From positions 1-41,812 of IMG/VR virus record IMGVR_UViG_3300035698_003494: 41,812 bases of DNA. The stretch is one strand, 5' to 3'. The stretch comes from a virus. Shown piece after piece: positions 16,104-39,285 of this stretch. The translations under genes and the position numbers were made by a program. A model generated the notes under the pieces. That model ran no database searches and was not told the origin of the DNA. It saw nothing but the letters and a program-made list of their open reading frames with translations. How positions within the stretch are numbered: position 1 is the stretch's first letter; each line of letters opens with the position of its first letter.

Positions 16104-16105
16104 AC

Positions 16106-24062: not shown

Positions 24063-24632
24063 CTATATTCTATGGATAGAAACTCTTGTATTTTTTAGAG
24101 CCCCATCAAAATCTGGTACTGCATCTCCATTATTATGATAACCTTTAAAAGTTAGTATATCTCCAACTATTAAATCTACAATAGTAGTATTGTTAGTAGT
24201 TGTAACTGCACTTTGAGAATTACCTGATAAAACTTGAGCAACCTCTACTCCATTTTTAATTATTAGACTTGATATTGTCTTATCTGCATTAAGACTACTT
24301 ACGCGTAAATTAAAGGTAACTAGATATCTACCTGCTTGAGTTGCTGTAAAACTATATGCTGTAGTATCAAATTCATTAAGACAATCAATATCTATAGTAT
24401 TAAATTCAATCTGTGTGAATGTATTATCAGCAATATTAGCTTGAGAAGCAGACAAATATACTACAATACATGTTTTATCTTTAAGTCTATTCACATCCCA
24501 TTTAAGCTCTTCTATATCTGTATCATGTTGCTGTATCCTATTCTCTTTAATAACATCTTCACTTTTCAAATCCCTCTCTACAGGATTCCCTAACATATCA
24601 ATTTTAGGATCTACATCTCCAATACTTGGCAT
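24063..24632 (-). CDS. C1q/TNF-like domain virion protein
   Basis: An N-terminal helix likely to form a coiled coil (IQQHDTDIEELKWDVNRLKDK) leads to a jelly-roll: TFTQIEFNTIDIDCLNEFDTTAYSFTATQAGRYLVTFNLRVSS...SSLIIKNGVEVAQ. This order (coil, then C1q-like head) makes trimers in tail fibres and spikes, so it may bind the host surface or decorate the tail. It overlaps the nozzle gene stop by one base. 189 residues. Confidence 0.7.
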   Translation of the reverse strand: MPSIGDVDPKIDMLGNPVERDLKSEDVIKENRIQQHDTDIEELKWDVNRLKDKTCIVVYLSASQANIADNTFTQIEFNTIDIDCLNEFDTTAYSFTATQAGRYLVTFNLRVSSLNADKTISSLIIKNGVEVAQVLSGNSQSAVTTTNNTTIVDLIVGDILTFKGYHNNGDAVPDFDGALKNTRVSIHRI

Positions 24633-27151
24633 TACTTATTCTCCCCAGATTGTTTAATTTGATTAGACCAGAAAGAGATATCCATAGATTGAGATAAAAT
24701 ATTATTAGAAAACTTATGCGCAATATATTTACCTTGTAATTTCAAAGGTAGTCTTTTGATAAGTACATCTAATGAATCACCATCTGTAGAAATATCCCCA
24801 CTATTAGTAATACCTAATTCATTTGTAACTGTAGTAGTAATAGGCATATCTGAAGTAGTTTTCCCTACTCCTATTTCAGTAAGTACAGTTTCTTTTCTCT
24901 TTGCAGGATTCTTATAAGAATTAAACATTGATTGCCATTCTGCATTTATAGAAGAATAAGAGGCATCTGCTTGTTGATCTCTCCAATCAGTAGGAGCTAC
25001 TCCAGAGTAACGAAGTTCATCTATTAATGCTCCTGTATATGTTGTAAATGCTGGAGGAAATTGTATTACTAATTTAGTAGCAACTGATAAATCAGCTCCT
25101 CCACTTGCTCCAGTAGGAGTAACAGCAGTATTAATTGAAAGTAAATACCATCCTGGTCCAGTGATAGGATTTCCATAAGCATCTTTGGAAATATTCCATT
25201 GAGTAGTTTCTGCCGTATTATAGATTGTAGCGATAAAATTGTAAATAACATATCCTCCTGCTACATCACTTGGATGTTTCCACCAAAAAGTTACATTTGT
25301 ATCTTCAAGATCTGTTGCTCCAGAAAAAGTATTTGTTAAAGCAGCATATCCTGTAGTTGTAGAGAATGCTAGTGAAGCTGATTGGTATTTCTTATCTGTT
25401 GTAGTAGCTGCAAAAGCTGATGTATTAGCAGATGTCCAACCAGTAGTAGAATTACAATCTGAGAGTAAATCACTCTTACTTAATTGATAATCATGTTTGT
25501 ATAGATAACCATCCTTATCTCCCATAATAACATAAGATTTAGTAGAACCTCTATACCCTGTAGCAGCAGTCATGTTTATAAAATCATACCTTGACCATGC
25601 TTTACTACTATTACCATAGATTAATTGATTCTGACTATAAGCATCTGCACTATTACCATAGAATAACCAGTATTGATCTTTATCTGGATGAATGCAAGCA
25701 AAATCATCTTCTCTTTTATCTTCAGGAACACTTTGTAGAGTAGGTACAATTCTTCTATCAATTCGTATAGGTTTACTACTTGCCCCTACCGCATATAGTC
25801 CAGTAGTAGATCTAAAGAATAGATATTGTAAAGCTCCCCAAACATTATCTTGTAAATCTCCTAATATAACTCTCCTAATTGATCTATCAGAAATAGCTCC
25901 AATTCCTTTCTCATTTGTGTCTCCTGTATACATAGATACTCTTCTATAAGGAATATCTGTATTGTTAGTAATAATAATTTTGTGTATAGAATAGTGTTTA
26001 AATACAAATAAGATATTTCCTAATGTTGACATTCCTTTGATGGAATCTCCATCTCCATCATCAATACCCATGTTAGAACTATCTGTAGTCCAATCTGCAC
26101 CATCATTAGGACTAGACCAGTAAATAACATTTCCATAAGAAGCAAATAATCTTCCATCGAATGTTTCTAAATTCTCTGGTAAACTAGGAGCATTTGTATC
26201 TGTGATAGATGTCCAAGAATTATTAGTAGTAGCAAAATATATTCCTTGTGTTTGACCCACTACCCGTATATCGTCAATTTGTAAAGCTCCAAATTTATTA
26301 TCTGTAACTTGAAAGATACTTACTTTTATCCTAACTATATCACCAACATCTGGTGCTCCTACAGTACCGCCTGTAGCTGTACTATTTGGATCAATTGAAA
26401 TTTGATGCCAACCACTTCCTATAGAATCACCATTAATATCTGTAGTAACTTCCCAGTAAGCTCCATTATTTTCTGCTGCTTCTTTATAGAAGTAAACTCT
26501 AATTTTAGATATTCCACCACCTACATCACTATCAGATCCTTTAATCCACATAGTAATATTTCTATTAGTAGCATCAAAAGTAGTAAAATCTTTATAGAAT
26601 CCATTTTCATTACCTACGGGAATAATATTAGCACCACCAGAGATACATCCTGTTCCTTCTACTTTATCGTAAGTAATAGCTGCTGGATTTGCTATCTCAG
26701 GTGTAGTACCAAATCTAGCCCACCCAGTAACAGCATCACAAGCATCTACTTGTCCTGTTCCTGCATCTGCACTCTTAGTAGTAATAAATGATTTACTTCC
26801 TATAGTAGCAGAACTTGGTATATAATCTGTATCAAGATTACTTAAGATAGCTGTAACTGTCCCAGCAGTTAAATCAACATCATATAGAACTCCATTGTCT
26901 GCATAACATTGTAAGTAGGTAGATCCTGCAAAACTAAATTGATAGAATCCTTTAATAGCTCCACCTGCTGCTGTTCCATTAATTCTACTAACACCTTTAC
27001 GTTTATGAATACTTCCATAAGTACCATACCTATCAAAATATACATTATGCGCTATAGAGGCTTCAGCAGAATTCATCTGATACTTGGATATAGCTTCGTT
27101 TAAGCCTTTAGAGTTATTATCAAATAACCATGTTTCATAGTTGCTTCCCAT
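24632..27151 (-). CDS. Tail nozzle protein (T7 gp12-like) with two binding-domain inserts
   Basis: 839 residues. The beginning (ASIAHNVYFDRYGTYGSIHKRKGVSRING) and the middle (YFATTNNSWTSITDTNAPSLPENLETFDGRLFASYGN) look like the beta-propeller of podovirus tail tubular protein B. Two jelly-roll segments interrupt it, each starting with a DACDAVTGW or SDCNSTTGW phrase and ending with IDDIRVVG or IDELRYSG; they resemble carbohydrate-binding modules. It is gene-adjacent to the adaptor, as in T7. ATG shares a base with the adaptor stop. Confidence 0.78.
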   Translation of the reverse strand: MGSNYETWLFDNNSKGLNEAISKYQMNSAEASIAHNVYFDRYGTYGSIHKRKGVSRINGTAAGGAIKGFYQFSFAGSTYLQCYADNGVLYDVDLTAGTVTAILSNLDTDYIPSSATIGSKSFITTKSADAGTGQVDACDAVTGWARFGTTPEIANPAAITYDKVEGTGCISGGANIIPVGNENGFYKDFTTFDATNRNITMWIKGSDSDVGGGISKIRVYFYKEAAENNGAYWEVTTDINGDSIGSGWHQISIDPNSTATGGTVGAPDVGDIVRIKVSIFQVTDNKFGALQIDDIRVVGQTQGIYFATTNNSWTSITDTNAPSLPENLETFDGRLFASYGNVIYWSSPNDGADWTTDSSNMGIDDGDGDSIKGMSTLGNILFVFKHYSIHKIIITNNTDIPYRRVSMYTGDTNEKGIGAISDRSIRRVILGDLQDNVWGALQYLFFRSTTGLYAVGASSKPIRIDRRIVPTLQSVPEDKREDDFACIHPDKDQYWLFYGNSADAYSQNQLIYGNSSKAWSRYDFINMTAATGYRGSTKSYVIMGDKDGYLYKHDYQLSKSDLLSDCNSTTGWTSANTSAFAATTTDKKYQSASLAFSTTTGYAALTNTFSGATDLEDTNVTFWWKHPSDVAGGYVIYNFIATIYNTAETTQWNISKDAYGNPITGPGWYLLSINTAVTPTGASGGADLSVATKLVIQFPPAFTTYTGALIDELRYSGVAPTDWRDQQADASYSSINAEWQSMFNSYKNPAKRKETVLTEIGVGKTTSDMPITTTVTNELGITNSGDISTDGDSLDVLIKRLPLKLQGKYIAHKFSNNILSQSMDISFWSNQIKQSGENK

Positions 27152-27795
27152 TATTCTAGTGAATCTCCTTGTAGTAGTCTTGCATCAGAACCATTCAAAT
27201 GTTTCCTTTGGTCTGCTAACATATCATTTAATCCTTTTTGAAACTTATGTTCCCAACGTCTATACCTTATATTATCATCTCTATCATTATATAAATCAGC
27301 TATTACACCATATTTTATTACTCTTGCATATTCATCATGAAATTCAAAGTAATGACTATCAGCAGTCATAGTTCTATGTTTTCTATAAATATAAGTTGTT
27401 AGAACTTTATTTTGAGCTGGAGTAGGATAGAGGTAAAAAGCATCATCTGTCACTGGTATAAAGTGAGTAGGTGATCCTGTTGCTTGAGTATAATCTGTTA
27501 CTACCTCTTCATATCTTTTTAAGGCCATCTTCTTAAGAGATACTTTTTGTTCTGATTCTTTCATACTTTCTACATTATTTACTTGATAAGCTGTATTAGA
27601 AGATAGTGTATACCTTCTTGTACCAGCTACAGTTGTAAAGTCATATAGATCTCGCATACCTCTCCACGAAGTCTTTGCTTCTAACTCCATAATTCTGTCA
27701 TTAGTGAAGTCATCTATCAGTAACTCTGTATAAGCTGTAGAGTCATCAAAATATCTTTTTACTTGTAGTTTAAATGCGCTAAAATCAATTGCCAT
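27151..27795 (-). CDS. Tail adaptor, T7 gp11-like (tail tubular protein A)
   Basis: 214 residues. The order of a helical N-terminus (LIDDFTNDRIMELEAKTSWRGMRDLYDF), a short beta region with YTLSSNTAYQVNNVESM, and DDAFYLYPTPAQNKVLTTYIYRK followed by a helical EYARVIKYGVIADLYNDRDDN matches portal-nozzle adaptors. It should ring the portal and join it to the nozzle encoded next. Overlaps the glycosyltransferase gene by 11 bases. Confidence 0.8.
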   Translation of the reverse strand: MAIDFSAFKLQVKRYFDDSTAYTELLIDDFTNDRIMELEAKTSWRGMRDLYDFTTVAGTRRYTLSSNTAYQVNNVESMKESEQKVSLKKMALKRYEEVVTDYTQATGSPTHFIPVTDDAFYLYPTPAQNKVLTTYIYRKHRTMTADSHYFEFHDEYARVIKYGVIADLYNDRDDNIRYRRWEHKFQKGLNDMLADQRKHLNGSDARLLQGDSLE

Positions 27796-28903
27796 AACTT
27801 TTCATCCTCCTTGTGTGTTTTATTTGCTCTTTCTTTAGAATTCTAGCATATCTTTCCGCGATTGTCGCTAAACTATAATTAGCTTTTATCTTTTTGTAAG
27901 CTGTATTTCCTACTTGTTTTCTAAGAGTAGCATCTTTAATTAATAGTTCTAAACTTTCAATCCAATCTTCAGTTGTATTACATAAGTAACCATCTTTACC
28001 ATGCTCAATACATTTGTATGGTTCGACATCTGAAGCTACTACTGGTATCTTTAATGCAGATGCTTCTAACCATCTTAAATTACTTTTAGCTCTATTAAAT
28101 AATGTATCTCTGATTGGAGCTAATTCTATATCAAATCCAGCCTTTGCTTTATATTCAGGATACTTATTTACAGGTATCCATCTTTGTATGTGCTCTACTC
28201 TCTTTAAACTTGTTATCTTCTCAGGCAGTTCTCCACCTAAGAATTTAAACCTAACTTTAGGGTACTTCTTATGTATGTACTCTATAGCTGGTATAATTAA
28301 TTCTACATCTTTTAGGTGAGCAGATCCACCTTCCCAGCCAACTGTTATATATGTTTTCTTTATATTATTTTTATACTTGCCCCAAAGTTTTAAATCTACT
28401 CCATTTGGTACAATATGTATATTCTCGTTAAATGGTTTGTATAGGTCTTTTAAATATTTTGTTGATACAATTACTGCATCACTATCTTGTAACTGTGTCT
28501 TAACTACTTTCATCAAATCAGAGTTTGGATCAAAGTAAGAATGGTTAGGATTTGAAGAATCTACACCAAACGCATAATCATCTATCTCAGTTATTACAGG
28601 TTGTTTAAAATGATGAATTAGATCTATTAAAGCTAATCCCCAGCAAGAAGAGAATAGTTGAAAGATGAAAGACTTAACTTTCTTCTTTGTACATAAGAAT
28701 CTAAAATAATTCTCTTTCTCTAACCTATCTTTAGGGTTTGCTATAGTAGCTTCTAATTGATTTACCTCAGCATTAAACTTTGCTGGATTATAATCATTAT
28801 ACCAACATTTAGATAAATCTGCTTTCTCCATTTCTTTAGCAAAACCTATCATTCTATAATATGCACTCGACTGTGTCTGAGTGTAACCCCAATATACTTT
28901 CAT
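27785..28903 (-). CDS. GT4-like glycosyltransferase in the structural operon
   Basis: 372 residues of GT-B fold: VYWGYTQTQSSAYYRM, IVPNGVDLKLWGKY, YITVGWEGGSAHLKDVELI, and the donor site LAPIRDTLFNRAKSNLRWLEASALKIPVVASDVEPY ending in a typical C-terminal helix. It lies between a lectin-like tail/fibre gene and the adaptor, co-transcribed with virion genes and apart from the main sugar cassette. A virion protein could be its acceptor. ATG after AGGAGG. Cytoplasmic. Confidence 0.87.
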   Translation of the reverse strand: MKVYWGYTQTQSSAYYRMIGFAKEMEKADLSKCWYNDYNPAKFNAEVNQLEATIANPKDRLEKENYFRFLCTKKKVKSFIFQLFSSCWGLALIDLIHHFKQPVITEIDDYAFGVDSSNPNHSYFDPNSDLMKVVKTQLQDSDAVIVSTKYLKDLYKPFNENIHIVPNGVDLKLWGKYKNNIKKTYITVGWEGGSAHLKDVELIIPAIEYIHKKYPKVRFKFLGGELPEKITSLKRVEHIQRWIPVNKYPEYKAKAGFDIELAPIRDTLFNRAKSNLRWLEASALKIPVVASDVEPYKCIEHGKDGYLCNTTEDWIESLELLIKDATLRKQVGNTAYKKIKANYSLATIAERYARILKKEQIKHTRRMKSYGN

Positions 28904-28919
28904 ACTTTCCTCCTATACT

Positions 28920-30017
28920 TTATTTAACGTCCTTCGTATTTGATCCTGCTGTATCTATTTCATAATGGATATCAAAATCTAAAAAATACACTCCTCCTGC
29001 ATAATTGTCTGCTGAGGCTGCTACCCTTTTAATTCTGCACATTAAGACAGATGAAATGGTATGTCCTGTACCATCTATCCCCGCAGTAGGAAAATATCCA
29101 AATTGGTGCATCCCATTAGTATTTACTCCAGTTGGTATATCCGTAGTAACTAAAGTAGTATTTGCAGGAAAATCTTCACCTATATCTGCCCACCAATATT
29201 CAAATTCTACTCCAAAATTATCTGAAGGATCCACATCAGAAGTTGTCATAAAATGTACATGTGGCCATATAGTAGATCCTTCTTTCCACTTATGAGGTAT
29301 TTGAACTGTTATAATTGACTCATCACCATCTGAATACACATAACCATAGACACCTTGACTACCAGAACCATCTGTAGCCATCTGAGTTAATGCTGGATTG
29401 TTAGAATTTCCTCTCCAATTGTTAGGTCCTAGAGGTGTGACATAATCTTCCCATACTGTAGCAGTACCATTAAATTCTAAAGTACCATCTGCTTTAATAG
29501 CAGTATAGTTAGTTCCAGGAGTACCTACTTGTGTCTCTCGAGCAGCATCTATCTCTACTACTGTAGTTCCATCTGTTCTTAGTCTTATTTTCTCTGCTGC
29601 TATAGTTAGTCCTGGTGTAGTAGCTGGAGGAGCTAGTTCAAAATTAAATAAATGAGTACCTCCACCAAATGTTCCACTATTATCATATAATGCTTGAACT
29701 ATCTCTGCATCTGTAGATGTGGAAGCTAAATCTGCATAATCTAACATGCTAAGATCAAATATTCCACCATCCCAAGGAATAACCCCAGCGTAACCACCCA
29801 CAGTAGAAACTGCATCATGAAAATCCCCACTAGTTGAAAATGTATGTGTCACACTTCCAGCTAAAACATTATCTAGATAAATACTTAAAGTTTTACCTCC
29901 GTCTAAACCACCTGCTTTATCCCACATAACAACCATGTGTATAACATCATCTGGAGACCAAGTTTCACCAATAGTAAAGGTTCCACCTGTTGGTTCTTCG
30001 ACTCCATTAACTCTCAA
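28920..30017 (-). CDS. Lectin-type tail/fibre protein, 3' part of a frameshifted gene
   Basis: The frame is open up to 30044 and has no good start of its own (TTG at 30017, no ribosome site). It begins SIDDWTFILRVNGVEEPTGG, then VIHMVVMWDKAGGLDGGKTLSIYLDNVLAG, a concanavalin/LamG-like fold. The last 200 residues (IPHKWKEGSTIWPHVHFM...EFEYWW) match a domain I know from environmental phage fibre proteins. The 5' part lies in the other frame at 30014-30208; a one-base shift near 30,041 would join them into about 420 residues. Confidence 0.8.
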   Translation of the reverse strand: MRVNGVEEPTGGTFTIGETWSPDDVIHMVVMWDKAGGLDGGKTLSIYLDNVLAGSVTHTFSTSGDFHDAVSTVGGYAGVIPWDGGIFDLSMLDYADLASTSTDAEIVQALYDNSGTFGGGTHLFNFELAPPATTPGLTIAAEKIRLRTDGTTVVEIDAARETQVGTPGTNYTAIKADGTLEFNGTATVWEDYVTPLGPNNWRGNSNNPALTQMATDGSGSQGVYGYVYSDGDESIITVQIPHKWKEGSTIWPHVHFMTTSDVDPSDNFGVEFEYWWADIGEDFPANTTLVTTDIPTGVNTNGMHQFGYFPTAGIDGTGHTISSVLMCRIKRVAASADNYAGGVYFLDFDIHYEIDTAGSNTKDVK

Positions 30018-30208
30018 AATAAAAGTCCAATCATCAATACTTGACTAACAACTAAAGAATTATAATTGATATCTGCTGCAAGTGGATAAAGAACTCCTGA
30101 ATCCGTACCGTACATACGCATATTCCAAAATAAAGAACCATCACTTATTTGAGTTCTAAAGTTATCAAAATAATGTTCGTTATATCCTTTTCCTGGACGT
30201 ACAGCCAT
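30014..30208 (-). CDS. Lectin-type tail/fibre protein, 5' part of a frameshifted gene
   Basis: ATG at 30208 (TAATG with the previous stop, AAAGGAAAG upstream) opens MAVRPGKGYNEHYFDNFRTQISDGSLFWNMRMYGTDSGVLYPLAADINYNSLVVSQ, the normal start of a concanavalin-like phage protein. After about residue 56 the frame runs into VLMIGLLF and stops, while the -1 frame continues with SIDDWTFILRVNG. Adding one A to the CAAG at about 30,041 would restore one frame. It may be a real mutation, programmed shifting or a sequencing/assembly error. Confidence 0.7.
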   Translation of the reverse strand: MAVRPGKGYNEHYFDNFRTQISDGSLFWNMRMYGTDSGVLYPLAADINYNSLVVSQVLMIGLLF

Positions 30209-30618
30209 TATGATCTTTCCTTTATAATTTTTCTCCAACTCTCAGTATTGTTGGGTAAACTTCTTACTCTACATGCTTCCTCTAACCAATGGTTTGCAAA
30301 TTCTTGCTTATTAACATCTTGCATTATAAAATCACTCCCAAGCATCCACTTATTCATCTGTTTAGATAGATTCATTACAATCTTATCTAGATTCTCTTGT
30401 GTTCTTGGTAACTGACTAATCTCTAAAGCTTTGACTACATAATTTTCTAAAGTTCCTGATGCCATTTCTTTACAGCTTAATTCAGGAATTTCATTCATCT
30501 CAAATCCATCTTGTGCTGGACCTGAGGATAACTTAGTATTCTCTCTATTTAGTAATGTTGAGTTTACTTCCTCTGGTCTATTACCAGGTTCAGAAACTAT
30601 GCTTGCTTCATCTGACAT
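30208..30618 (-). CDS. Hypothetical structural-operon protein, 136 aa
   Basis: A polar, disordered first third (SEPGNRPEEVNSTLLNRENTKLSS) is followed by a helical domain (LENYVVKALEISQLPRTQENLDKIVMNLSKQMNKWMLGSDFI). It overlaps the epimerase end by 22 bases and couples to the lectin-type gene. It may be an assembly or chaperone factor for the neighbouring fibre gene, by position only. Confidence 0.6.
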   Translation of the reverse strand: MSDEASIVSEPGNRPEEVNSTLLNRENTKLSSGPAQDGFEMNEIPELSCKEMASGTLENYVVKALEISQLPRTQENLDKIVMNLSKQMNKWMLGSDFIMQDVNKQEFANHWLEEACRVRSLPNNTESWRKIIKERS

Positions 30619-31529
30619 TTATACCACCTCACATATTTTTCTAAATCTCTATCAAAATCAGTTGTAGGTTTAAATCCATACTTACCTACTTTAGTAATAT
30701 CTGTACATAATCTTTGCACTTCTCCAGCCCTAGGTTGTACATATCTAATCCCTGAAGTAGATCCTGTAATCTCTATAATCTTTTCTGCTATATATTTAAT
30801 AGCCTGAGTCTCTCCTGTACCAAAGTTATAGACTCCTGCTGGAAGTTCTGTCATAGCAAAACTATAAGCTTGAATAATATCATCTATATACATATAGTCT
30901 CGTTTTTGTTCACCTGAACCATAAATATGAAGTGGTGCATTATTTAAAGCAGCTTTTGTAAATCTAGCAATCACTGATCCATAACTACCATCATTTTGAG
31001 ATGGTCCAAAAGCATTAAAGTTACGTACTATAATAATATCCATTCCATGAGTATCTACATAAGATTTCGCTAACCTATCAGCAGCCACTTTACTTGCACC
31101 ATAAGGTGACTGGCAGTCTAAAGGATGTTCTTCATTCATATATTCTTGTTGGGAACTTCCATAAACTTCTGAGGTTGAAGCAACTATACATTTAATCTTA
31201 TGCTTTCTACATTGTTCTAATATATTTAAAGTACCACTAACATTTATATCGAGTGTCTCTTGAGGATACTTAATAGAGTAATCGACATGAATTTGAGCAG
31301 CTAAGTGTATTACTAAATCTATAGGGTTCTTCTTAGGAACACTAAAAACTTTATGTAACCACTTCTTATCTCTAATATCTTTATTATAGATGCAATGAGG
31401 ATAATCAATCTTATTACTACATGAATGAAAATCATTATCCATTCCTGTAACTATATGACCTTGATCCCACAAATGATTTGCTAGGTGTGATCCCATAAAT
31501 CCTTTAATCCCAGTTATAAATACATGCAT
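30597..31529 (-). CDS. Extended SDR nucleotide-sugar epimerase/dehydratase
   Basis: 310 residues, a NAD-dependent sugar nucleotide enzyme: TGIKGFMGSHL for the cofactor, VIHLAAQIHVDYS, the STSEVYG strand, catalytic Tyr/Lys in SPYGASK, and RNFNAFGPSQ for the substrate site. STSEVYG with SPYGASK is close to UDP-sugar 4-epimerases and 4,6-dehydratases; which one cannot be told. A keto-sugar from a dehydratase is what the DegT aminotransferase at 14198 needs. It sits directly after the capsid gene in the late operon. ATG after AGGAG. Confidence 0.9.
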   Translation of the reverse strand: MHVFITGIKGFMGSHLANHLWDQGHIVTGMDNDFHSCSNKIDYPHCIYNKDIRDKKWLHKVFSVPKKNPIDLVIHLAAQIHVDYSIKYPQETLDINVSGTLNILEQCRKHKIKCIVASTSEVYGSSQQEYMNEEHPLDCQSPYGASKVAADRLAKSYVDTHGMDIIIVRNFNAFGPSQNDGSYGSVIARFTKAALNNAPLHIYGSGEQKRDYMYIDDIIQAYSFAMTELPAGVYNFGTGETQAIKYIAEKIIEITGSTSGIRYVQPRAGEVQRLCTDITKVGKYGFKPTTDFDRDLEKYVRWYKCQMKQA

Positions 31530-31560
31530 TATACTACTCCTATACTTTATTTGATTGGAA

Positions 31561-31578
31561 GGGGAGTTTTACCTCCCC
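31561..31578 (-). terminator. GC-rich hairpin after the capsid gene
   Basis: GGGGAG-TTTTAC-CTCCCC forms a perfect 6-bp stem 20 bases past the capsid stop, in the 68-base gap before the epimerase. On the leftward transcript it is not followed by a U run, so it is more likely a partial attenuator or 3' mRNA stabiliser that favours capsid over downstream genes than a full terminator. Confidence 0.45.
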
Positions 31579-31597
31579 AACCATTCCATTCAGGTTT

Positions 31598-32713
31598 CTA
31601 ACCGTTAAAAGTTATAAGACCTGTTCCTTGTGTACTGTCAAGGACTTTACATACACCTGTCCATTTATATCCTACAGTAGCTGTTTGCTGCAATAGATTA
31701 TCGTGGGAAGCAGTTTCAAAACCTAGACGATAAGTTTTGATTCCTGTGTCTCCAGCGAATTCAGTTATAGCAAAAGCTTGTTTTCCTAAGAATATAGCAA
31801 GATAAGCGGTAATTGATCCTGTAGCACCTGTCACACTCATAGAGTGAGAAGAATTAAATAGGTTAGTAGATTCGATTATTCTACAACCAGCAACTTTACC
31901 AACTTCATGTTTGAACATTTTGTCAGCATTGTTGTATCTATTCCATTCTCTCCATTCTGGATCCTCCATAACACTGTTAGCTTGTTTTGGAGAAACTACT
32001 AATGCGTATTCTCCACCACTATGCGGACTAACATTAGCAACCTTCAAGTCTGTTACAACTTTTCGGATCTTGCCTATGTTAAGAGCGTCTGGACCTGTCG
32101 CACCTAAACCAACTGCATTTGTGTCACCATTATCTGCACTTGCGCTATAGAACGCTGTAAAACGTGCTAGAGTAACTTCAGTTGACTTATCAGCAGACAA
32201 GAAATATGCAGACAAACCACCAAGTTTTCCGTTGTACCATGTTGATAATGGTCTGTGGAATAAACCTGTAGCAGTAGGACCTGCATGATAAGCTACACTG
32301 GCAACATAATCTTCGGTAAACTCACTAAAGAGTTTATCTTGGATATATTTGTCAATTGTGTTAGCAGCTGAAACACCAAATCTTTCTACAGCAATAGTCA
32401 TCATATCAGCGATAGATGATTTTGCCATTACATCAGAAATAGCTGTCCTGTCACCAAATTGAATCACGGTTGCTGTCTTAGTACCACCTGTCATAAATTG
32501 ACCTGCTGGTAAAACACCTTCTGTGATTCTGGCACCTGAAGCAAACTTAGTTACAGTGTGAAATGTAATTACATTACCATTCCGTTGCTGTATTGGTCGG
32601 TTGTCAGCTAATTGCATTAAAACAGAATTATCTTCTAATACTTCTAGTATCTTTTTGTCGTGAAATGCTCCGAGTAGACCTGCGGAGTTATCACCGACGG
32701 CTGAACCTGCCAT
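31598..32713 (-). CDS. Major capsid protein, N4-gp56-like family
   Basis: 371 residues. NVITFHTVTKFASGARITEGVLPAGQFMTGGTKTATVIQFGDRTAISDVMAKSSIADMMTIAVERFG is typical of the HK97-fold N4-gp56 family, which has no long delta domain, and VVSPKQANSVMEDPEWREW...GKVAGCRIIEST fits the later part. ATG at 32713 (MAGSAVGD) has GAAGG eight bases upstream; in-frame GTG/ATG starts at 32722 and 32719 are too close to it. Preceded by the scaffold-like gene and followed by a hairpin, as highly expressed capsid genes often are. Confidence 0.88.
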   Translation of the reverse strand: MAGSAVGDNSAGLLGAFHDKKILEVLEDNSVLMQLADNRPIQQRNGNVITFHTVTKFASGARITEGVLPAGQFMTGGTKTATVIQFGDRTAISDVMAKSSIADMMTIAVERFGVSAANTIDKYIQDKLFSEFTEDYVASVAYHAGPTATGLFHRPLSTWYNGKLGGLSAYFLSADKSTEVTLARFTAFYSASADNGDTNAVGLGATGPDALNIGKIRKVVTDLKVANVSPHSGGEYALVVSPKQANSVMEDPEWREWNRYNNADKMFKHEVGKVAGCRIIESTNLFNSSHSMSVTGATGSITAYLAIFLGKQAFAITEFAGDTGIKTYRLGFETASHDNLLQQTATVGYKWTGVCKVLDSTQGTGLITFNG

Positions 32714-32751
32714 CGTCATCACCTTCTTTCATTATTTAATTTTTTCTTTCT

Positions 32752-33519
32752 TTATAACAATTCTGGACGTTCGAATTGACCTGTTAGTTCTGGAAATGTT
32801 TTTATCATTTCACTAGCAGACATTTCAACTTTTCCAGATACAACATCTTCTAATGAGGGTGTAGCGGAAATATCTTCTGGTTTAGTTGAGGATTCAACTG
32901 AAGCTGCTGCTTTAGTAATTTCTGTTGCGGTTACTTCGTCTACAGCTTTTTGCTTCTCTGATTCGATTACACCTTCCAATTTCTGTTTAGCAACTCTGTC
33001 ATAAGCTACTTCCCAAGCCTCTGGATTTAGTTTAATAGCACCTGTCTTATCCCACTTGTCTAATACTGCGTGTACTTGATCTCTAACTTCTGTTGTATAC
33101 GGTACAAGTTGATTTTGTCCATATTTTCTCTCAAGAGTAAGTTCATTATTCACTACTGCGTTTTGTATTGTAAGCTTATTAATAAGCCTTTGTTGTGGGT
33201 TCAACGGTACTGCTTGAACTGGTGCTTGTTCTTCTGAATATTCTTCAGGTACAGTATTCTCTACTGGCTGAAGAGATTCCACAATCTTATCCGTTTGTAA
33301 AGACTCAATTAACTTATCTTTTCCTGCTAATTGCTCCTTATACCTTTTAGCTAATCTTGTAGATTCCTCAAGTTCTGCTTGTACGTTTATCTCCTCTTCC
33401 TCAGGGACTATAGTTTCTTCAACTACAGGCTGGGGTTCTACTTCGGGAGTGGCTTCCGAAATTTCAGGAGTAGGTTCAATAGTTTCTAGAACGTCCTGGT
33501 TTTCTATAGGTTCACTCAT
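32752..33519 (-). CDS. Scaffold-like protein, 255 aa
   Basis: Highly acidic, Glu/Pro/Val-rich N-terminus (EPTPEISEATPEVEPQPVVEETIVPEEEEINVQAELEE), then a predicted coiled coil (STRLAKRYKEQLAGKDKLIESLQ) and a helical end. Its place directly before the capsid gene and this composition are what capsid assembly scaffolds show. It has no protease motif. ATG after AGGAGG. Confidence 0.75.
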   Translation of the reverse strand: MSEPIENQDVLETIEPTPEISEATPEVEPQPVVEETIVPEEEEINVQAELEESTRLAKRYKEQLAGKDKLIESLQTDKIVESLQPVENTVPEEYSEEQAPVQAVPLNPQQRLINKLTIQNAVVNNELTLERKYGQNQLVPYTTEVRDQVHAVLDKWDKTGAIKLNPEAWEVAYDRVAKQKLEGVIESEKQKAVDEVTATEITKAAASVESSTKPEDISATPSLEDVVSGKVEMSASEMIKTFPELTGQFERPELL

Positions 33520-33545
33520 TTTATTCCTCCTTATTTTATATTATA

Positions 33546-33803
33546 CTAAGATGTTTTGTTTTCTTTTTCACGTTCCTGCTTTTCTAGCACCTCCTTTTTT
33601 AAATTTTCTATTCTTTCATAAAACTTATCTACCAATTGCCAAGTAGCTCTTGCTACTGGATCATCTTGTCTTTTTAATTTTTTCATAGCTGCTTCCTTCT
33701 TAGTATCTAAGAATAGAAGAATATCTTTGTATGCAGGTTGTTGTTCAACAAATGTATAACTTCCCCACAATTTTTCAACATCTAAAATACTATACTTTGA
33801 CAT
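33546..33803 (-). CDS. Hypothetical protein between portal and scaffold, 85 aa
   Basis: SKYSILDVEKLWGSYTFVEQQPAYKDILLFLDTKKEAAMKKLKRQDDPVARATWQLVDKFYERIENLKKEVLEKQEREKE is fully helical and charged. ATG shares a base with the portal stop. Small helical proteins at this place are common in podoviruses and may aid head assembly; no family is recognised. Confidence 0.7.
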   Translation of the reverse strand: MSKYSILDVEKLWGSYTFVEQQPAYKDILLFLDTKKEAAMKKLKRQDDPVARATWQLVDKFYERIENLKKEVLEKQEREKENKTS

Positions 33804-35719
33804 TATCCTGTAGGACCTCCTGCTTGATTAGGTTGAGAAGGGTTAGCACCACCTGTATTCGGTTGAGTGTTTCCTCCACTTTGCTGTTCTTGTTGAATCA
33901 TTTGTTGCATGATTTGTTGTGTCTCTTCATCTGAGAATGTTACTTCTTCTGCAACTTCTTCTCCTAGTAGAGTCTCAGCAATTTTTTGAATTATAACTTT
34001 AAACTTAACTACTGATTGAGCCATTGGTATTCTTGAAGTGATAGCTAAGAAGTTATTTAGTTGATGTGACAATTGTTCCATCTCTACTAACTGATTACTA
34101 CCTACTGCAATAAAGTCTAGGTCTTGAATAAGTTCTTTAGGATCTAGTCTCACATATTTCTCACCTGATTCTCCTACTACACCTATAACCATTGGTTTAG
34201 TCATAAACTGACTAATCAAAGAATACACCATAGAAATAAAAGGTTTAAGTAACATGTTTTCGAAAGTAAGCATCTTACCTAGAAACTTCTTATTTCCAGC
34301 AGTCATCAATAATCTTGTTTGAGAAGTATTTCTTACAGCTCCACTCTCAAATGTTCCTTGCATGATTCTACTAGCTCCAGTAACTTCTCTAATCTCATTT
34401 TGACCTAAGCCTACTTCATAAGAAGTATCTACTTTACTAAATTTTAGTTGTTGCAGTTTATCTGCCATTTTCTCGCCATCTTCTAAATCTACAAATATTA
34501 CTCCACCTGGTCTAGCTTTAACTTGACTTAAGTCTATGCCAGCACTTCTAGCAACTGTCAACATTAAGTTATTAGCTAGGTTATTACTATCCATAGCTTG
34601 ATTAACTGCTGTGTTTAACAGATCTTGGCCATCCTCAGCTAGTTCACATACACCAATACCCCAAATCTCTTTAGGGCGTCTTTTATAGTTACTATATAAG
34701 AATGGCTTCTTCCCATGTTCGAAAGGATTCTCTTCATCTCTGATAAGAGTTTGACCACCTGCTACAGTGCGCAATATTGTGCCATCTTTACTCCAGTATT
34801 CTAATATCTCATATTCTCCTAATTCATTAACAGTAACTTTAAGAGTTTCATCAGGGTTGGTTACTTTTGCTAAATTACTAGAATCATTAATACCTAAGTC
34901 AATCTTTTGATCTCTGGTAGTATGCTCTTGTTGATCTCCATCTTTTCCACCAATTCCAATGTTTTCTAATTTATCTAAATTCATGTATAGGTTTTTACCT
35001 GTAACAGATTTTACCTTTTTATTAATATTTTTTAAGTCATGTAGAGACTTCCAAGTTCTATGAACTAACCATGTATCTTCAAAAGAGGTAGCTCTAGAAG
35101 AGAAGAATATATCTTTCCAGGAAATATGTTCTATCACTGGACTATCTTTAATAACTTTAACTACTTCTCTTTCCTCTACTGTTTCTTTTACTGTTGGTAT
35201 GTCAAAACCTAATACCTTCTTAGTAGTAGGAGTTTTTATAACTTCTTTTACTTTCCTTGTTATTGATTCTTTCTTCCAAGAGACCTTCATAAAACTTGTA
35301 CCTATTACAAGGAGTTCAGTAACAAAATCATCAAATGTATTATAAGCTTGCATCTTCTCAATATATATTTTAATTAACTTCTCATGTATCTGAGCACTTT
35401 CTTTATTTATCTCAGTGTCAACACCTTTTACTTTAAATGGATTACCCTTCATAAATATAGTATCCATAAATATAGGATGAATTGTATCAATAACTTTAAA
35501 TGTTTCTTTCATATAAAGTCTTGACTTATAAGCATAGTTCTTACTATCTGGAAAGTCAGGAGTTTTATTTGTACTATTATGGAAGTGTCCTTTACTTATT
35601 AAAGTAGAATTAAACATCTCATACCACTTGGCAAACCTACTCTCTAGGGTTTGTCTAGCTTTAGAAGCCTCATTCTTGAGTTCTAATATTTGTTGGACTT
35701 TTTCTCGTTCACTGGCCAT
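33803..35719 (-). CDS. Portal protein, 638 aa
   Basis: Dodecameric DNA gateway of the head. Position directly after the large terminase, length, a helical start, the phrase FVTELLVIGTSFMKVSWKKES, IEHISWKDIFFSS, and GIGVCELAEDGQDLLNTAVNQAMDSNNLANNLM (the long stem helix region of podovirus portals) all agree. The tail is Gln/Gly/Pro-rich (IMQQMIQQEQQSGGNTQPN), as in many portals. ATG after AGGAGAG. It should join the gp11-like adaptor. Confidence 0.87.
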   Translation of the reverse strand: MASEREKVQQILELKNEASKARQTLESRFAKWYEMFNSTLISKGHFHNSTNKTPDFPDSKNYAYKSRLYMKETFKVIDTIHPIFMDTIFMKGNPFKVKGVDTEINKESAQIHEKLIKIYIEKMQAYNTFDDFVTELLVIGTSFMKVSWKKESITRKVKEVIKTPTTKKVLGFDIPTVKETVEEREVVKVIKDSPVIEHISWKDIFFSSRATSFEDTWLVHRTWKSLHDLKNINKKVKSVTGKNLYMNLDKLENIGIGGKDGDQQEHTTRDQKIDLGINDSSNLAKVTNPDETLKVTVNELGEYEILEYWSKDGTILRTVAGGQTLIRDEENPFEHGKKPFLYSNYKRRPKEIWGIGVCELAEDGQDLLNTAVNQAMDSNNLANNLMLTVARSAGIDLSQVKARPGGVIFVDLEDGEKMADKLQQLKFSKVDTSYEVGLGQNEIREVTGASRIMQGTFESGAVRNTSQTRLLMTAGNKKFLGKMLTFENMLLKPFISMVYSLISQFMTKPMVIGVVGESGEKYVRLDPKELIQDLDFIAVGSNQLVEMEQLSHQLNNFLAITSRIPMAQSVVKFKVIIQKIAETLLGEEVAEEVTFSDEETQQIMQQMIQQEQQSGGNTQPNTGGANPSQPNQAGGPTG

Positions 35720-35732
35720 AATTTCTCCTCTC

Positions 35733-35885
35733 CTAATTTAAACTGTAAGTAATTTGAAATTCTGAAGATCCAAAAGTAAATTTTAATACCAAGTTACAAT
35801 TCTCGGCAAACTTTGGATATGTCTCAGCATATTCCTGCATTATCTTTTCTTCACCTTTTAATTTTTCTTCTTCTAATTCGTCCAT
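35733..35885 (-). CDS. Small acidic hypothetical protein, 50 aa
   Basis: ATG at 35885, one base after the terminase stop and after AGGATA. MDELEEEKLKGEEKIMQEYAETYPKFAENCNLVLKFTFGSSEFQITYSLN has a charged helix and a short beta end. A longer in-frame start at 35924 lies inside terL and is less likely. No family recognised. Confidence 0.65.
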   Translation of the reverse strand: MDELEEEKLKGEEKIMQEYAETYPKFAENCNLVLKFTFGSSEFQITYSLN

Positions 35886-35886
35886 T

Positions 35887-37521
35887 TTAATATCCTGTTC
35901 TACTACAATTTGGATTGTAATCATACTGAGGATCTTTCTGATCTAATTTAGATGGTTTAATAATAGTTAAGATATTAGATAAAGCATCTGGATAATCCTC
36001 ATGATCTGTATTACCATAATCTACTAGTTGGTTCAACAACTTAATCATTCCTGGACTTAACTTTCTTATCTTTCCCATGAAAGGATATGCTTCTCCTTTT
36101 TCATCTTCCACGAAAACTAAATTCTTATTCTCTATATATGGCTGTAAACCTAAAATCTTAGCATGCTTACTTCTTTGATTACTTGCCATGATAGGTATCA
36201 CTTTTCTCTTTAATGCTGGATACTTCTCTTTAAAAATATTTATGTATGTTTTACTAAAGTTCTTCTCTATTGCTATCTTATAAGGTTCATGTAGATCATT
36301 CTCTAATGCAATCATCTCTAAGAACTTGTTACTTGATATGTTAGCTTGTCCAATTGAGCCTAGTATATATAGTTTACTTAGTTGTAAGTCTCCTACCTTT
36401 ACTGCACTTACTCCTACCGTGATAGCTGCCCAATCATCTGCTCTCTTGTATGTACTATCATCTCCAGCAGGGTCAACTAGTAAGTATTTCTTCATTCCCC
36501 CTGGAACTTCCTTCTTACTACAAAATTGCATATCCTCTGCTTTAAATGCTGCTCCCTCATCTGAAGTAGGGAAATTCATTTGCTGACAACTAAATTCAAA
36601 AGTTCCTTTTTCTGCATAAGTATTCTTGGCATATTTAATGTCAAACATATTAGGAGCTAGTAACTTAGTATCTGGATGTTTTAAAAGTAAATTAATCTTA
36701 CTTCTCCATCTCTCAGGGTCAGACTTCTCTAAAGTTGGATTTACCATTAATGGGTAATCAATAAGAAAATCTAATGATCTCTTTGCAGTTACCATCAGAT
36801 AGTTATATAGATCTCCAAAATGCCATCTAGTACCAAAAACTACAATAATCCCTTTCCTAGTGTTTCCATCTAAAAAGGGTTTATTCTGGTCATTAACTAC
36901 TAAATCTAAACAATCCTTATATAGCTTAGTTTGTTTCTCTCTCATAACAGATGTCTCAGAATTATCTCTAATAGCTACATCGTCTAAGACTATAATATCA
37001 TAGTGAGCTCCTGTTACATCTTTACCTACAGAGAAAGTCTCACAAGATTTATTCTTATAGTGTGCTGTTCTTGGGGCGATGTTAAAACCTTTTTTAGTCC
37101 ATCCACCTTTAGTAAACCAGTTTCCGAATAGATCTATGAATTTTTCATTTGCAGTAACATGTGATTGTAACTCGGATATAATATCCTCACAATGCTTTCC
37201 TGTAGCTGAACCTAATCCTACTCTAATATTTGGGTTTCTTATCCACATCCATAAGATCCAACCTACTATCATAGTGGTCTTTAGATGTTTTCTAGGAATA
37301 GTTACTACACCTCTTTCGAACTGGTGAGTAAGCTTATTACCTATTTCCAAATGAACTTCTTCTTTTACATCTACATACTCCAGAACTGACTGGCAGAAGT
37401 AGATATAATCATTCTTGCAGCGTGCTGTTTCTAACCTCTTCTTTAACTCGTGATTTAAGCACTTCAGTCTCTTCAAGAATTTTATCAAGCTCTTGGATAA
37501 GTTGTCCAATACTAAATCCAT
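35887..37521 (-). CDS. terL: Terminase large subunit
   Basis: ATP-driven DNA packaging motor and nuclease, 544 residues. Walker A is PRKHLKTT (76-83), a phage-type variant with His-Leu where Gly is usual; Walker B is YDIIVLDD (Asp180/Asp181). The nuclease begins with YLLVDPAGDDS...DDWAAITVG. ATG at 37521 has AGGAGAG five bases upstream, inside the small-subunit gene, so the genes overlap by 113 bases; no later start codon is visible in frame. Acts with the small subunit and portal. Confidence 0.93.
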   Translation of the reverse strand: MDLVLDNLSKSLIKFLKRLKCLNHELKKRLETARCKNDYIYFCQSVLEYVDVKEEVHLEIGNKLTHQFERGVVTIPRKHLKTTMIVGWILWMWIRNPNIRVGLGSATGKHCEDIISELQSHVTANEKFIDLFGNWFTKGGWTKKGFNIAPRTAHYKNKSCETFSVGKDVTGAHYDIIVLDDVAIRDNSETSVMREKQTKLYKDCLDLVVNDQNKPFLDGNTRKGIIVVFGTRWHFGDLYNYLMVTAKRSLDFLIDYPLMVNPTLEKSDPERWRSKINLLLKHPDTKLLAPNMFDIKYAKNTYAEKGTFEFSCQQMNFPTSDEGAAFKAEDMQFCSKKEVPGGMKKYLLVDPAGDDSTYKRADDWAAITVGVSAVKVGDLQLSKLYILGSIGQANISSNKFLEMIALENDLHEPYKIAIEKNFSKTYINIFKEKYPALKRKVIPIMASNQRSKHAKILGLQPYIENKNLVFVEDEKGEAYPFMGKIRKLSPGMIKLLNQLVDYGNTDHEDYPDALSNILTIIKPSKLDQKDPQYDYNPNCSRTGY

Positions 37522-37849
37522 TATACTCTCCTAATGCTTCCTCTTCAAGTTTAAGAATCTTGAAATAGTATTTCCAATATTCCTTTGGGTCACTTGAGAG
37601 TTTCTTTAACATCTTTGGAAGTTCTGTTTGAATGAATGTCTTAGCTGACATCTCACCTACAGAAGCTTCTAAAGTTTGAGCGTCTTGAAAGTCCTTAATC
37701 CTTTTAGATACTTCAGGTCGTTTCATTAGCTCACTGCCTCGTTTATGCGCTGAAGCTGGAGCATATCCTGCTGCTATTGCTGCTTGGCGATATGATTCTC
37801 CAGTGTTCACTTTCTCTACGAATAAATCTATCTTATCTTGTTTTACCAA
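37409..37849 (-). CDS. terS: Terminase small subunit
   Basis: 146 residues: an N-terminal helix-turn-helix (FVEKVNTGESYRQAAIAAGYAPASAHKRGSELMKRPEVSKRI) typical of Terminase_2 family DNA recognition, a central helical oligomerisation region, and a charged C-terminus. ATG after AGGAG, two codons past the secreted protein gene. It selects phage DNA for packaging. A headful mode would fit a circular assembly, but no pac site is visible. Confidence 0.87.
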   Translation of the reverse strand: MVKQDKIDLFVEKVNTGESYRQAAIAAGYAPASAHKRGSELMKRPEVSKRIKDFQDAQTLEASVGEMSAKTFIQTELPKMLKKLSSDPKEYWKYYFKILKLEEEALGEYNGFSIGQLIQELDKILEETEVLKSRVKEEVRNSTLQE

Positions 37850-37858
37850 TATACTCTC

Positions 37859-38455
37859 CTAATCAGGAGTTCCACCTGCATCTGTTGTTCCATCACCATC
37901 TGATTGTGTAATAACCCATTTACCTGCTGATCCTGCTACTATAGCAGTTGCGTGCATAATACTTCCTGCTGGCACTGCTAACTCTTTATTAGGAGTACAC
38001 TCTACAGCATTAATATATTGTGTCTGCAAAGCTGGTCTAATCTCAATTTCTGTTGAAGGATCACTTATGATATCAATTTTATGTCCTACTACTGGAGTAG
38101 GTAAAACTATAAATAAGTTTGCTCCTGCGGATGTTACATTAACCATTGAAGTTCCTGCTGCTATTATAGCATCTGGGCTTGTTATAGCTGTTCCTGCTGT
38201 GATTTCTACTGGTGTTTGAGTAAAACCTTCTTCAAAGGTTATCTTTCCTAGAGTACCATCTGTACCACCTGCCTTAGAGAGAACTATATAACTTCCCTCA
38301 TAACTGTTAAGCCCGATCATATAGTCTACATCATATCCAAGAGAGTTTATATAAGTCTCTAACTCTGTAATCCCCTGCCATTCTTTAGTAGTATATGTAG
38401 CGGTAGCAAATAATGCAGTACATAATATTAAGAATCCAATTATCCATTTTTTCAT
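37859..38455 (-). CDS. Secreted beta-rich protein, 198 aa
   Basis: MKKWIIGFLILCTALFATATYT is a clear Sec signal peptide. The mature part is Thr/Gly/Ala-rich and resembles phage decoration or fibre proteins in style (GKITFEEGFTQTPVEITAGTAITSPDAIIAAGTSMVNVTSAGANLFIVLPTPVVGHKIDIIS). Export of a protein encoded just ahead of the terminase genes is unusual; it may coat the host surface or bind the envelope during lysis. ATG after GGGAGTGAG. Confidence 0.75.
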   Translation of the reverse strand: MKKWIIGFLILCTALFATATYTTKEWQGITELETYINSLGYDVDYMIGLNSYEGSYIVLSKAGGTDGTLGKITFEEGFTQTPVEITAGTAITSPDAIIAAGTSMVNVTSAGANLFIVLPTPVVGHKIDIISDPSTEIEIRPALQTQYINAVECTPNKELAVPAGSIMHATAIVAGSAGKWVITQSDGDGTTDAGGTPD

Positions 38456-38497
38456 TTTCTCACTCCCTGTTTTTATGTTTTATGCTTTATTTCTCAA

Positions 38498-38550
38498 GGT
38501 ATATTCAAATACTAGTTTAAGGTATATAAAACGGTATACTCTGAGGTATA
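38498..38550 (-). repeat. Four phased GGTATA (TATACC) motifs
   Basis: GGTATA occurs at 38498, 38521, 38533 and 38545; the last three are 12 bases apart, the first 23 bases away. Read leftward they are TATACC. They fill the gap between a 53-residue gene and the secreted protein, at the head of the late operon. Regular spacing suggests binding sites for a regulator; no sigma-70-like promoter is clear here. Confidence 0.45.
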
Positions 38551-38552
38551 CT

Positions 38553-38714
38553 TTATTGTATCTTCTTACCTATTGTTAAATCTTTATCTAGTTGGTAAAC
38601 CCCTTTGTTTGTAAAAATTAAATACCCATTCATACAGTTCTTAGTGTCTGTAATTACTTCACCTTTTCTTATTCCTGTTAGTTTTAAAATAATCTCTAGG
38701 GTACGTCCATTCAT
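38553..38714 (-). CDS. Small hypothetical protein, 53 aa
   Basis: MNGRTLEIILKLTGIRKGEVITDTKNCMNGYLIFTNKGVYQLDKDLTIGKKIQ is preceded by AAGGAG eight bases before the ATG at 38714. Beta-rich with a basic end. It is the first good leftward gene ahead of the late operon. No family recognised; the ribosome site is the main support. Confidence 0.7.
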   Translation of the reverse strand: MNGRTLEIILKLTGIRKGEVITDTKNCMNGYLIFTNKGVYQLDKDLTIGKKIQ

Positions 38715-38866
38715 AACTTAATCTCCTTACATACAATATTTTTTAAAAATTCTATAAGTGTGCATTACCTCAGTATAATAACCTTCTAGTACCCTTCGTC
38801 CCTTTGACGGTTTAACCTTTTACTCAATAGGTCGTGTAGTTTTAAGAGGTCTATGGCTTATATGTC

Positions 38867-38947
38867 CTATTTCCCTTGTATTACTATGTCCCTAGCTTGT
38901 TTAATCACTAATAGTGTAATAAGATATAGTAAATACTTAAACTCCAT
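38867..38947 (-). CDS. Tiny membrane peptide, 26 aa
   Basis: MEFKYLLYLITLLVIKQARDIVIQGK is a short hydrophobic helix with a charged tail. AAGGAG lies eight bases before the ATG at 38947; another ATG four bases upstream would end after four codons. Too short to be sure; it could be a small membrane effector like other tiny proteins in this phage. Confidence 0.4.
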   Translation of the reverse strand: MEFKYLLYLITLLVIKQARDIVIQGK

Positions 38948-39244
38948 TCATACAGCTCCTTATTGCCCATACAGTGTGATACTTACATGTAAAATGTTTG
39001 TTACCTTTTATACCTTTTTAAGTATCATACTACTATCATATACCTTATATGTTAGGAATGTAATACTAAGTATAATTAAGTACTATACTTGTTTGTATCT
39101 TATACTGTTATTGTTTTAAAATACGTACTTCTCCCCCATTCTCTTTTAACCAATAGGCTGTTAGAGTTATTTTAATATATACACTTTCTTTAAAAATAGA
39201 GAGATAAATGTATTATATTATTAGGGGCTATACATGAAGTAAAG

Positions 39245-39271: not shown

Positions 39272-39285
39272 AGTCAACCTAATAG

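Follow-up and report, generated by a model that had tools for sequence, protein, structure and literature searches.

The stretch of DNA analysed here (the window) is a viral record of 41,812 nt (IMGVR_UViG_3300035698_003494), in which the genes for the major capsid protein (MCP), an SDR sugar-nucleotide enzyme, a LamG-type protein, a GT4 glycosyltransferase and an SU10-type adaptor are all on the − strand. The MCP gene (31,598–32,722) was assigned from matches to phrog_1357 (5.9e-42) and PF25209 (9.6e-08) and from an alignment with 19 relatives. As originally predicted, the SDR gene (30,597–31,529; PF01370 2.6e-60, PF16363) comes right after the capsid gene, starting 68 bp past the MCP stop. 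The gap between them (31,530–31,597) contains a G+C-rich hairpin (z of −2.2, and of −2.3, −3.5 and −3.9 in relatives L002, L003 and L027) and, by the SDR start, a 16-nt leader (31,537–31,552) that recurs before the GT4 gene, the exact 16-mer being found at these two places only. Downstream lie an ORF of 136 aa (30,208–30,618), kept after the SDR in L002 (38%); an ORF of 74 aa (30,014–30,238), a stump of a 97-aa protein from L002 (60% over 30 residues); and the gene for the LamG-type fibre or decoration protein (28,920–30,017), which is truncated at its 5′ end with respect to L002 (64% over the rest) and begins about half-way into the LamG domain, whose first half is absent. From the comparison with L002, we infer that DNA is missing around the 74-aa ORF. 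The GT4 gene (27,785–28,903; PF13692 8.4e-11, phrog_7162 3.2e-39; 43% to the GT4 from L027) is followed by that for the SU10-type head-tail adaptor (27,151–27,795; PF24175 9.3e-18), the downstream border of the interval. The predicted order of lectin-type gene, GT4 and adaptor is therefore correct, whereas the term lectin-type derives from the homologue in L002 (Laminin_G_3, 8.1e-10) and not from the window ORF, which had no Pfam match of its own. Given the tight intergenic gaps from the SDR gene through C1q (−31 to +16 bp), and since a pattern scan found no − strand terminator in positions 26,500–39,400, a single late transcript spanning the capsid to adaptor genes is a plausible prediction.

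The SDR contains the active-site residues S-T-S-E-V-Y-G and Y-x-x-x-K; among 19 phage SDR rows, the motif S[ST]SE.YG was present in all, including L022, and YxxSK in 18. We take the T/S-S-E triplet plus YxxxK to be the signature of NDP-hexose 4,6-dehydratase-like SDRs, and decarboxylases share the triplet. By its S-T-S-E motif, then, the enzyme is putatively 4,6-dehydratase/decarboxylase-like, and the epimerase of the original prediction is a family name only. It scored under the curated cut-offs both of the dTDP-glucose 4,6-dehydratase model TIGR01181 (181 bits, cut-off 365) and of the UDP-glucose 4-epimerase GalE model TIGR01179 (154 bits, cut-off 262). The predicted structure (pLDDT 87) aligned to many SDRs with Z of 35–40, a range comprising epimerases, Pal, decarboxylases and 4,6-dehydratases, and its loop after S-T-S-E was poorly modelled (pLDDT <50 at residues 122–130 and 134–137). 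Likewise, a profile search of the PDB retrieved Pal (246 bits), 4-epimerase (217), 4,6-dehydratase (213) and UDP-glucuronate decarboxylase (211).

No relative was retrieved from viral_contigs using the portal as bait, and we used the SDR and the MCP instead. The capsid-tail interval of the relatives contains genes for SDRs, a truncated NDP-sugar dehydrogenase, a DegT aminotransferase, a Gfo/Idh oxidoreductase, an LbH acetyltransferase, a GT2-GT4-methyltransferase fusion, a GT2, a WecB-like epimerase and a GT4. A check set beforehand was whether related phages keep the SDR by the MCP; they do so, downstream of it, at 21 of 24 testable loci, which include several near-identical ones and represent 16 MCP clusters. 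Since the SDR was the route to 16 of the 25 positive MCP clusters (another is the window and one came via the GT4), searches with the MCP only, blind to sugar genes, were counted separately: a sugar gene lay downstream in 7/15 MCP clusters, and in 7/10 of those whose MCP shares 34% identity or more with the query, while none was seen in the other 8/15, including L115 (35%, 9.9 kb examined). Three of 36 MCP clusters were dropped for having less than 300 bp after the MCP, and many contigs of relatives break off before the cassette is complete. Every sugar gene recognised in five records, each followed over 40 kb at most, was downstream of the MCP, and the same gene set, in similar order, occurs in at least 10 MCP clusters. 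The GT4 relatives end the interval, ahead of adaptor or tail genes, and all the GT4 ORFs listed at E ≤ 1e-15 were downstream of the MCP (25/25, near-copies included). Variants include L027, with a GT4 between MCP and adaptor and without the SDR; L003, with an SDR and no GT4 at that place; and the related lineages L093 and L095, where a different SDR, profiled as PseB-like in L095, fills the SDR slot. The arrangement recurs in relatives and is thus beyond chance: judging from these homologies, the SDR and GT4 genes are the outer genes of a putative glycan cassette kept between the major capsid and tail genes.

The window phage contains further sugar genes at the end of its + strand operon (12,618–19,164). 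Most of the mid-cassette genes are thus separate from the late operon in this phage, a point against the virion-glycosylation reading given below. They encode a truncated NDP-sugar dehydrogenase (12,618–13,430; TIGR03026 2e-08, under cut-off), whose short form is also found in the relatives' cassettes (36–41%); a DegT-family sugar aminotransferase (14,177–15,031; PF01041 2.9e-37; 45% to L008), with PseC as its best NCBIfam match, under cut-off; a left-handed beta-helix (LbH) sugar N-acetyltransferase (14,968–15,399; TIGR03570 2e-23, under cut-off; 53% to the L006 record); a SAM methyltransferase (15,396–16,103; PF13649 1.1e-13); a two-domain glycosyltransferase, GT2 then weak GT4 (16,266–17,975; PF00535 5.5e-14; PF00534 5.6e-04, under cut-off; 31–33% to the proteins from L017, L018 and L009); and a GT2 glycosyltransferase (18,433–19,164; PF00535 1.2e-25; 29% to a cassette gene from L018). 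The GT2 designated GT2b weakly matches GtrB-like serotype-conversion families (8.1e-08). The methyltransferase, a separate gene in the window, is fused in L009, where a single protein carries GT2 and methyltransferase domains and a central GT4 inferred from its alignment to the window protein; the window methyltransferase resembles the C-terminal domain of this fusion (27%, 1e-07, L009 residues 563–697). These genes, originally contrasted as an early set with those on the late transcript, are homologues of the genes between the SDR and the GT4 in relatives, and the contrast fails; both sets hence look like one pathway and, by homology, like one module split in the window, with most mid-cassette genes at the + strand operon end.

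The divergence of the SDR correlates with that of the MCP (r = 0.80) and of the portal (r = 0.81) over 14 lineages, with no value as high in 2,000 permutations each, although these lineages share ancestry and are non-independent, and the permutation test ignores kinship. This points to a long-term genetic link of the sugar genes to the structural genes, which is supporting rather than defining for a glycosylation system, and shared descent, not a role on the capsid, may account for the conserved gene neighbourhood. Since the SDR is kept by the MCP and the GT4 at the interval end, these genes are not random insertions at variable places, the outcome proposed as a refutation of the prediction. 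In the SDR tree, built with 28 of the 57 genome_contigs loci as cellular rows and with L034 among the phage rows, the family SDRs cluster with moderate support with one Patescibacteria sequence. The nearest cellular SDR was also from a Patescibacteria contig (L035, 50%), the wider cellular set being mostly from archaea and Chloroflexi, and an Amidase_2 gene suggests a peptidoglycan-bearing host. Among isolated phages, 394 records matched the SDR by tblastn, none with at least 60% identity (35% for the best of the 40 listed), and the portal and MCP reached about 20–29% among the matches listed; with these low identities, no cultivated member was found among them.

The best reading of these data has a structural protein as the putative acceptor, and the MCP, or a neighbour of it, is the likely candidate. 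A C-terminal tail of 18–38 residues is present on the 11 aligned MCPs of members with a full or contig-cut cassette, with 82 Ser/Thr in 277 tail residues versus 675 in 3,770 for the bodies; in 7 of the 11 tails, the Ser+Thr share was ordinary relative to their own MCP body (windows at least as rich, 0.15–0.40). The MCPs of the window, L002–L004, L017, L018, L020 and L027 have no such tail despite the sugar genes. Capsid C-termini are reported as glycosylated in mycobacteriophages, according to PMC12619734. In 15 cassette proteins tested, no membrane segment stood out clearly: over 19 residues, hydropathy peaked at 1.62 or less, and the 1.62 of the GT4 is borderline for a membrane anchor. On balance, it appears somewhat probable that soluble phage enzymes glycosylate virion proteins, the MCP or its decoration proteins above all. 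The SDR, aminotransferase and acetyltransferase, together with the dehydrogenase, oxidoreductase and 2-epimerase in relatives, would supply a nucleotide-linked amino sugar bearing an N-acetyl group; the two-domain glycosyltransferase, GT2 and GT4 would build a short glycan on the virion protein in the cytoplasm, at assembly time, and the methyltransferase would perhaps cap it. More tentatively, these phages could form a widespread uncultivated SU10/P22-portal-type lineage with a long-inherited 'glyco-capsid' module, comprising its own amino-sugar synthesis and the GT2-GT4-methyltransferase protein, that paints the MCP in the bacterial cytoplasm, in parallel to chloroviruses; the window phage would have split the module without displacing the genes at its capsid and tail ends.

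The cassette could instead alter the host surface glycan, for superinfection exclusion or to keep progeny off debris, its capsid-adjacent site only setting late, strong expression. O-antigen and capsule loci do encode enzymes of these kinds, GT2b has its weak GtrB-like match, and archaeal and bacterial SDR relatives lie near GT, SDR or DegT genes in several inspected loci; however, no flippase, polymerase or membrane-anchored glycosyltransferase was recognised, exclusion would come late, after capsid synthesis, and the link to MCPs down to 22% identical is left unexplained, so that we deem this rather unlikely. It is less probable still that the MCP-adaptor interval is a general accessory hotspot for fibres, lectins, esterases and sugar enzymes with separate roles and no single glycosylation system, as could be thought from the LamG and SASA esterase genes of L107, the fibre-like genes of the window, L002 and L004, and the single sugar gene each in L003 and L027; against it are the recurrent set and order described above, the co-divergence of the SDR with MCP and portal, and the retention of most parts in the window even when split. 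Lastly, that the sugars are placed on phage DNA (hypermodified bases) is very improbable, even if DNA-modifying phage glycosyltransferases are known (from a title cited in PMC12619734), because no homologue of base hydroxymethylases, TET-like enzymes or thymidylate synthases was found among the window ORFs scanned with Pfam/PHROGs (some small ORFs being outside the scan) and a phage that modifies its DNA has no need of an amino-sugar pathway next to the capsid gene.

Glycosylation of virion proteins, the preferred reading, has been shown for capsids in few phages so far; it is already known as such, and what would be new is a conserved capsid-linked pathway for it; searches of the open-licence literature listed no paper on sugar-pathway genes adjoining the capsid gene of a phage. 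If true, it would mark a whole environmental phage lineage as likely glycosylated, provide a genomic signature for finding more such phages, and offer a testable case in which a bacterial virus both synthesises its glycan and attaches it, which would affect adsorption, stability and recognition.

The cassette shares with the Wbp/Pgl/Pse-type systems, which we take to be amino-sugar pathways, the families of NDP-sugar dehydrogenase, Gfo/Idh, DegT, LbH and WecB-type epimerase, and the PseB-like enzyme of L095, but most models are under curated cut-offs and the dehydrogenase is truncated. Assuming that the Wbp pathway consists of WbpA, B, E, D and I, all five families are present in G004/L009, whereas the full set is absent among the scanned window ORFs, where neither Gfo/Idh (WbpB) nor PF02350 (WbpI) was recognised. 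With Gtr serotype conversion, presumably the work of a flippase and the membrane protein GtrB, the likeness is the GT2 with its weak GtrB-like match; a membrane-anchored GtrB and a GtrA-like flippase were not recognised in the cassette, and the gene context is different. For the mycobacteriophages Che8, Corndog and Myrna, virion glycosylation and its glycan have been shown (Freeman et al., 2023, as reported in citing papers). Their system also has, in these accounts, phage-encoded glycosyltransferases, capsid and tail proteins as proposed acceptors and, in some members, C-terminal capsid tails as candidate sites; however, the glycosyltransferases of Maravista are near the genome 3′ end, whereas here a sugar-synthesis set is tied to the capsid gene and a glycan on virions is predicted. 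A tblastn of the phage collection with the GT4 returned no mycobacteriophage among the best 30 of 142 matches. In the eukaryotic virus PBCV-1, protein A064R (glycosyltransferase, glycosyltransferase, methyltransferase) helps build the capsid glycan, according to PMC9614988 and PMC5408694. Its first domain is GT34-like, in contrast to GT2 plus GT4 here, and its likeness to the L009-type protein is one of architecture. Both systems have soluble virus glycosyltransferases, a GT-GT-methyltransferase protein and their own sugar-nucleotide SDR, and for both the major capsid protein is proposed to be modified in the cytoplasm.

The record, 41,812 bases with a 99-base direct terminal repeat, encodes a DnaB-type helicase, PolA and an exonuclease on the + strand and, on the - strand, a large terminase (assigned by position and weak Pfam matches), an SU10-type portal, a scaffold-like protein (by position), the major capsid protein (MCP; 32722–31598), an SU10-type adaptor (27795–27151), tail-region proteins and an amidase. 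The MCP stop is followed after 68 bp by the start of the sugar-nucleotide enzyme (SDR; 31529–30597), and the glycosyltransferase GT4 (28903–27785) is flanked by a LamG-type ORF (30017–28920) and the adaptor; the original prediction, which proposed glycosylated virions on the basis of an epimerase behind the capsid gene and a GT4 between a lectin-type gene and the adaptor, thus placed these genes correctly. Compared with the related locus L002, about 1.2 kb are absent between a 74-aa ORF and the LamG ORF (window 28920–30238), whose product lacks the first half of the domain and whose start codon is TTG. This loss is either a phage deletion or an assembly artefact and, because of it, the predicted lectin gene may be non-functional in this assembly. 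A C1q-domain protein (24063–24632; PF00386, 2.3e-07) probably acts as another decoration or fibre protein of the virion. Elsewhere, two related repeat genes (2–658 and 2166–2762) have identical stretches as long as 102 bp in common; the first, the one of the pair that was scanned, matches DUF4116 and overlaps the terminal repeat. The early operon at 4470–7130 combines a weak transglutaminase-like match with metallophosphoesterase, GDPD and patatin-like genes, which is an uncommon combination in a phage of this type.

Searching IMG/VR twice with the SDR retrieved 25 loci, of which 24 were testable for an upstream MCP, since L008 begins at the SDR. That relatives keep the epimerase beside the capsid gene, the check proposed with the original prediction, was borne out by the presence of the MCP upstream in 21 of these 24 loci; the exceptions were L022 and L023 (one sequence, 42%), with the L022 SDR clustering with cellular SDRs in the tree, and L026 (24%). 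The positive loci plus L034, a phage contig inside a Nanoarchaeota bin, grouped at 90% identity into 16 MCP clusters; the SDR starts at most 450 bp from the MCP end in 13 of them, and one to three ORFs intervene in L034/L007, L011 and L019. Despite its binning, L034 is a phage of this group, with MCP, SDR, LbH (left-handed beta-helix N-acetyltransferase), DegT, two-domain GT and GT4 genes. The arrangement persists even though, across 14 lineages, identity falls to 22% for the MCP and 15% for the portal; for the SDR it ranges from 45 to 85%.

A further search used MCP alignments as bait, not starting from a sugar gene. All searches pooled gave 36 MCP clusters, 33 of which extend 300 bp or more past the MCP; a recognised sugar gene followed the MCP in 25 of the 33. 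Among the 15 clusters reached through the MCP alone, seven had such a gene (L027, L093, L095, L105, L108, L113, and L114) and eight had none recognised; the proportion was 7/10 among those with an MCP identity to the query of 34% or more, with none recognised in the 1.0 kb seen of L097, the 9.9 kb of L115 or the 2.7 kb of L107. In L107 (11136–13709), a LamG protein and an acetylesterase of the sialic-acid type (SASA) follow the MCP in place of recognised sugar synthesis genes.

The fullest gene order in relatives is MCP, one or two SDRs, in some a truncated NDP-sugar dehydrogenase, DegT, Gfo/Idh, LbH, a fusion of ca. 720–757 residues, zero to two GT2, a WecB-type 2-epimerase, GT4, and connector and tail genes. 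The L009 fusion contains GT2 and methyltransferase domains (Pfam), and its middle aligns to the weak GT4 part of the window two-domain protein. The SU10 adaptor directly follows GT4 in L019, and the GT4-adaptor order recurs in the window and L027. A short form, SDR and two-domain GT, occurs in L017, L018, and L020/L021, with GT2 and GT4 added in L018 and L021. Five records were read for as much as 40 kb, and every sugar gene recognised in them lies downstream of the MCP; G005 and G007 have additional GT-like ORFs farther down that strand.

The window carries an apparently split version, with other sugar genes in an early + strand cassette (12618–19164). Here, the truncated dehydrogenase is 41% identical to the L009 gene, DegT 45% to that of L008, LbH 53% to that of the L006 record, and the two-domain GT (31–33%) and GT2 (29%) to cassette counterparts in relatives. 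The methyltransferase is a separate gene, 27–29% identical to the C-terminal part of the relatives' fusion, although cellular methyltransferases score nearly as high. Each of these genes found its top match among all fetched loci in a cassette phage, a comparison limited in that the SDR had served as bait for the cellular loci. The dehydrogenase (12618–13430), with 270 residues, is much shorter than its 413-position family model, as are those of relatives (about 244–259 residues); the window yielded no recognisable Gfo/Idh or 2-epimerase gene. The simplest reading is that the late operon kept the outer genes, with the middle ones located in the early operon; either arrangement may be the older one.

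Among NCBIfam models the window SDR scored best as dTDP-glucose 4,6-dehydratase (181 bits), followed by LegB (169) and GalE (154), all below cut-off. The pattern S-[ST]-S-E-x-Y-G occurs in 19/19 phage SDR rows, and the triplet within it is a closer fit for 4,6-dehydratases and decarboxylases than for GalE. L095 has a PseB-like UDP-GlcNAc 4,6-dehydratase in the SDR slot (TIGR03589, 190 bits, below cut-off). We prefer a 4,6-dehydratase-type reaction for the window SDR, between which and the others the predicted structure does not discriminate.

A G+C-rich hairpin without a T run directly follows the MCP (window 31530–31600), with counterparts in L002, L003, and L027 (all four folded, z -2.2 to -3.9), and could govern the dosage of the genes behind it. 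An identical 16-mer stands in the leaders of GT4 (28910–28925) and SDR (31537–31552) and at no other place in the window; neither the L002 nor the L027 starts show it, though the window also has three further, chance-like 16–18-mer repeats.

Gene content, order, conservation and co-divergence are the observed part of the mechanism. The best 19-residue hydropathy was at most 1.62 in 15 cassette proteins, from which we infer soluble enzymes that would therefore be active in the cytoplasm, the compartment in which virion proteins fold. There, a sugar would be synthesised, acetylated and transferred onto a virion protein, perhaps with a methyl cap added. The MCP is the favoured acceptor, because of gene adjacency and of a C-terminal tail of 18–38 residues that 11 aligned members, full-cassette or contig-cut, carry. 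Ser/Thr account for 82 of 277 tail residues vs. 675 of 3770 body residues in these MCPs, but for seven of the 11 tails this enrichment is unremarkable against the rest of the same MCP (fractions 0.15–0.40) and the window MCP lacks such a tail, so the tail is only a hint of MCP glycosylation. In the window, decoration proteins rank equal as candidate acceptors.

In the open-licence papers searched we found no description of a capsid-linked sugar pathway in phages. Mycobacteriophages are reported to use GTs of their own to glycosylate capsid and tail tube proteins (PMC12363180), at C-termini (PMC12619734). The PBCV-1 capsid is glycosylated in the cytoplasm by the virus's own soluble enzymes, among which A064R joins a methyltransferase to two GT domains (PMC5408694, PMC9614988).
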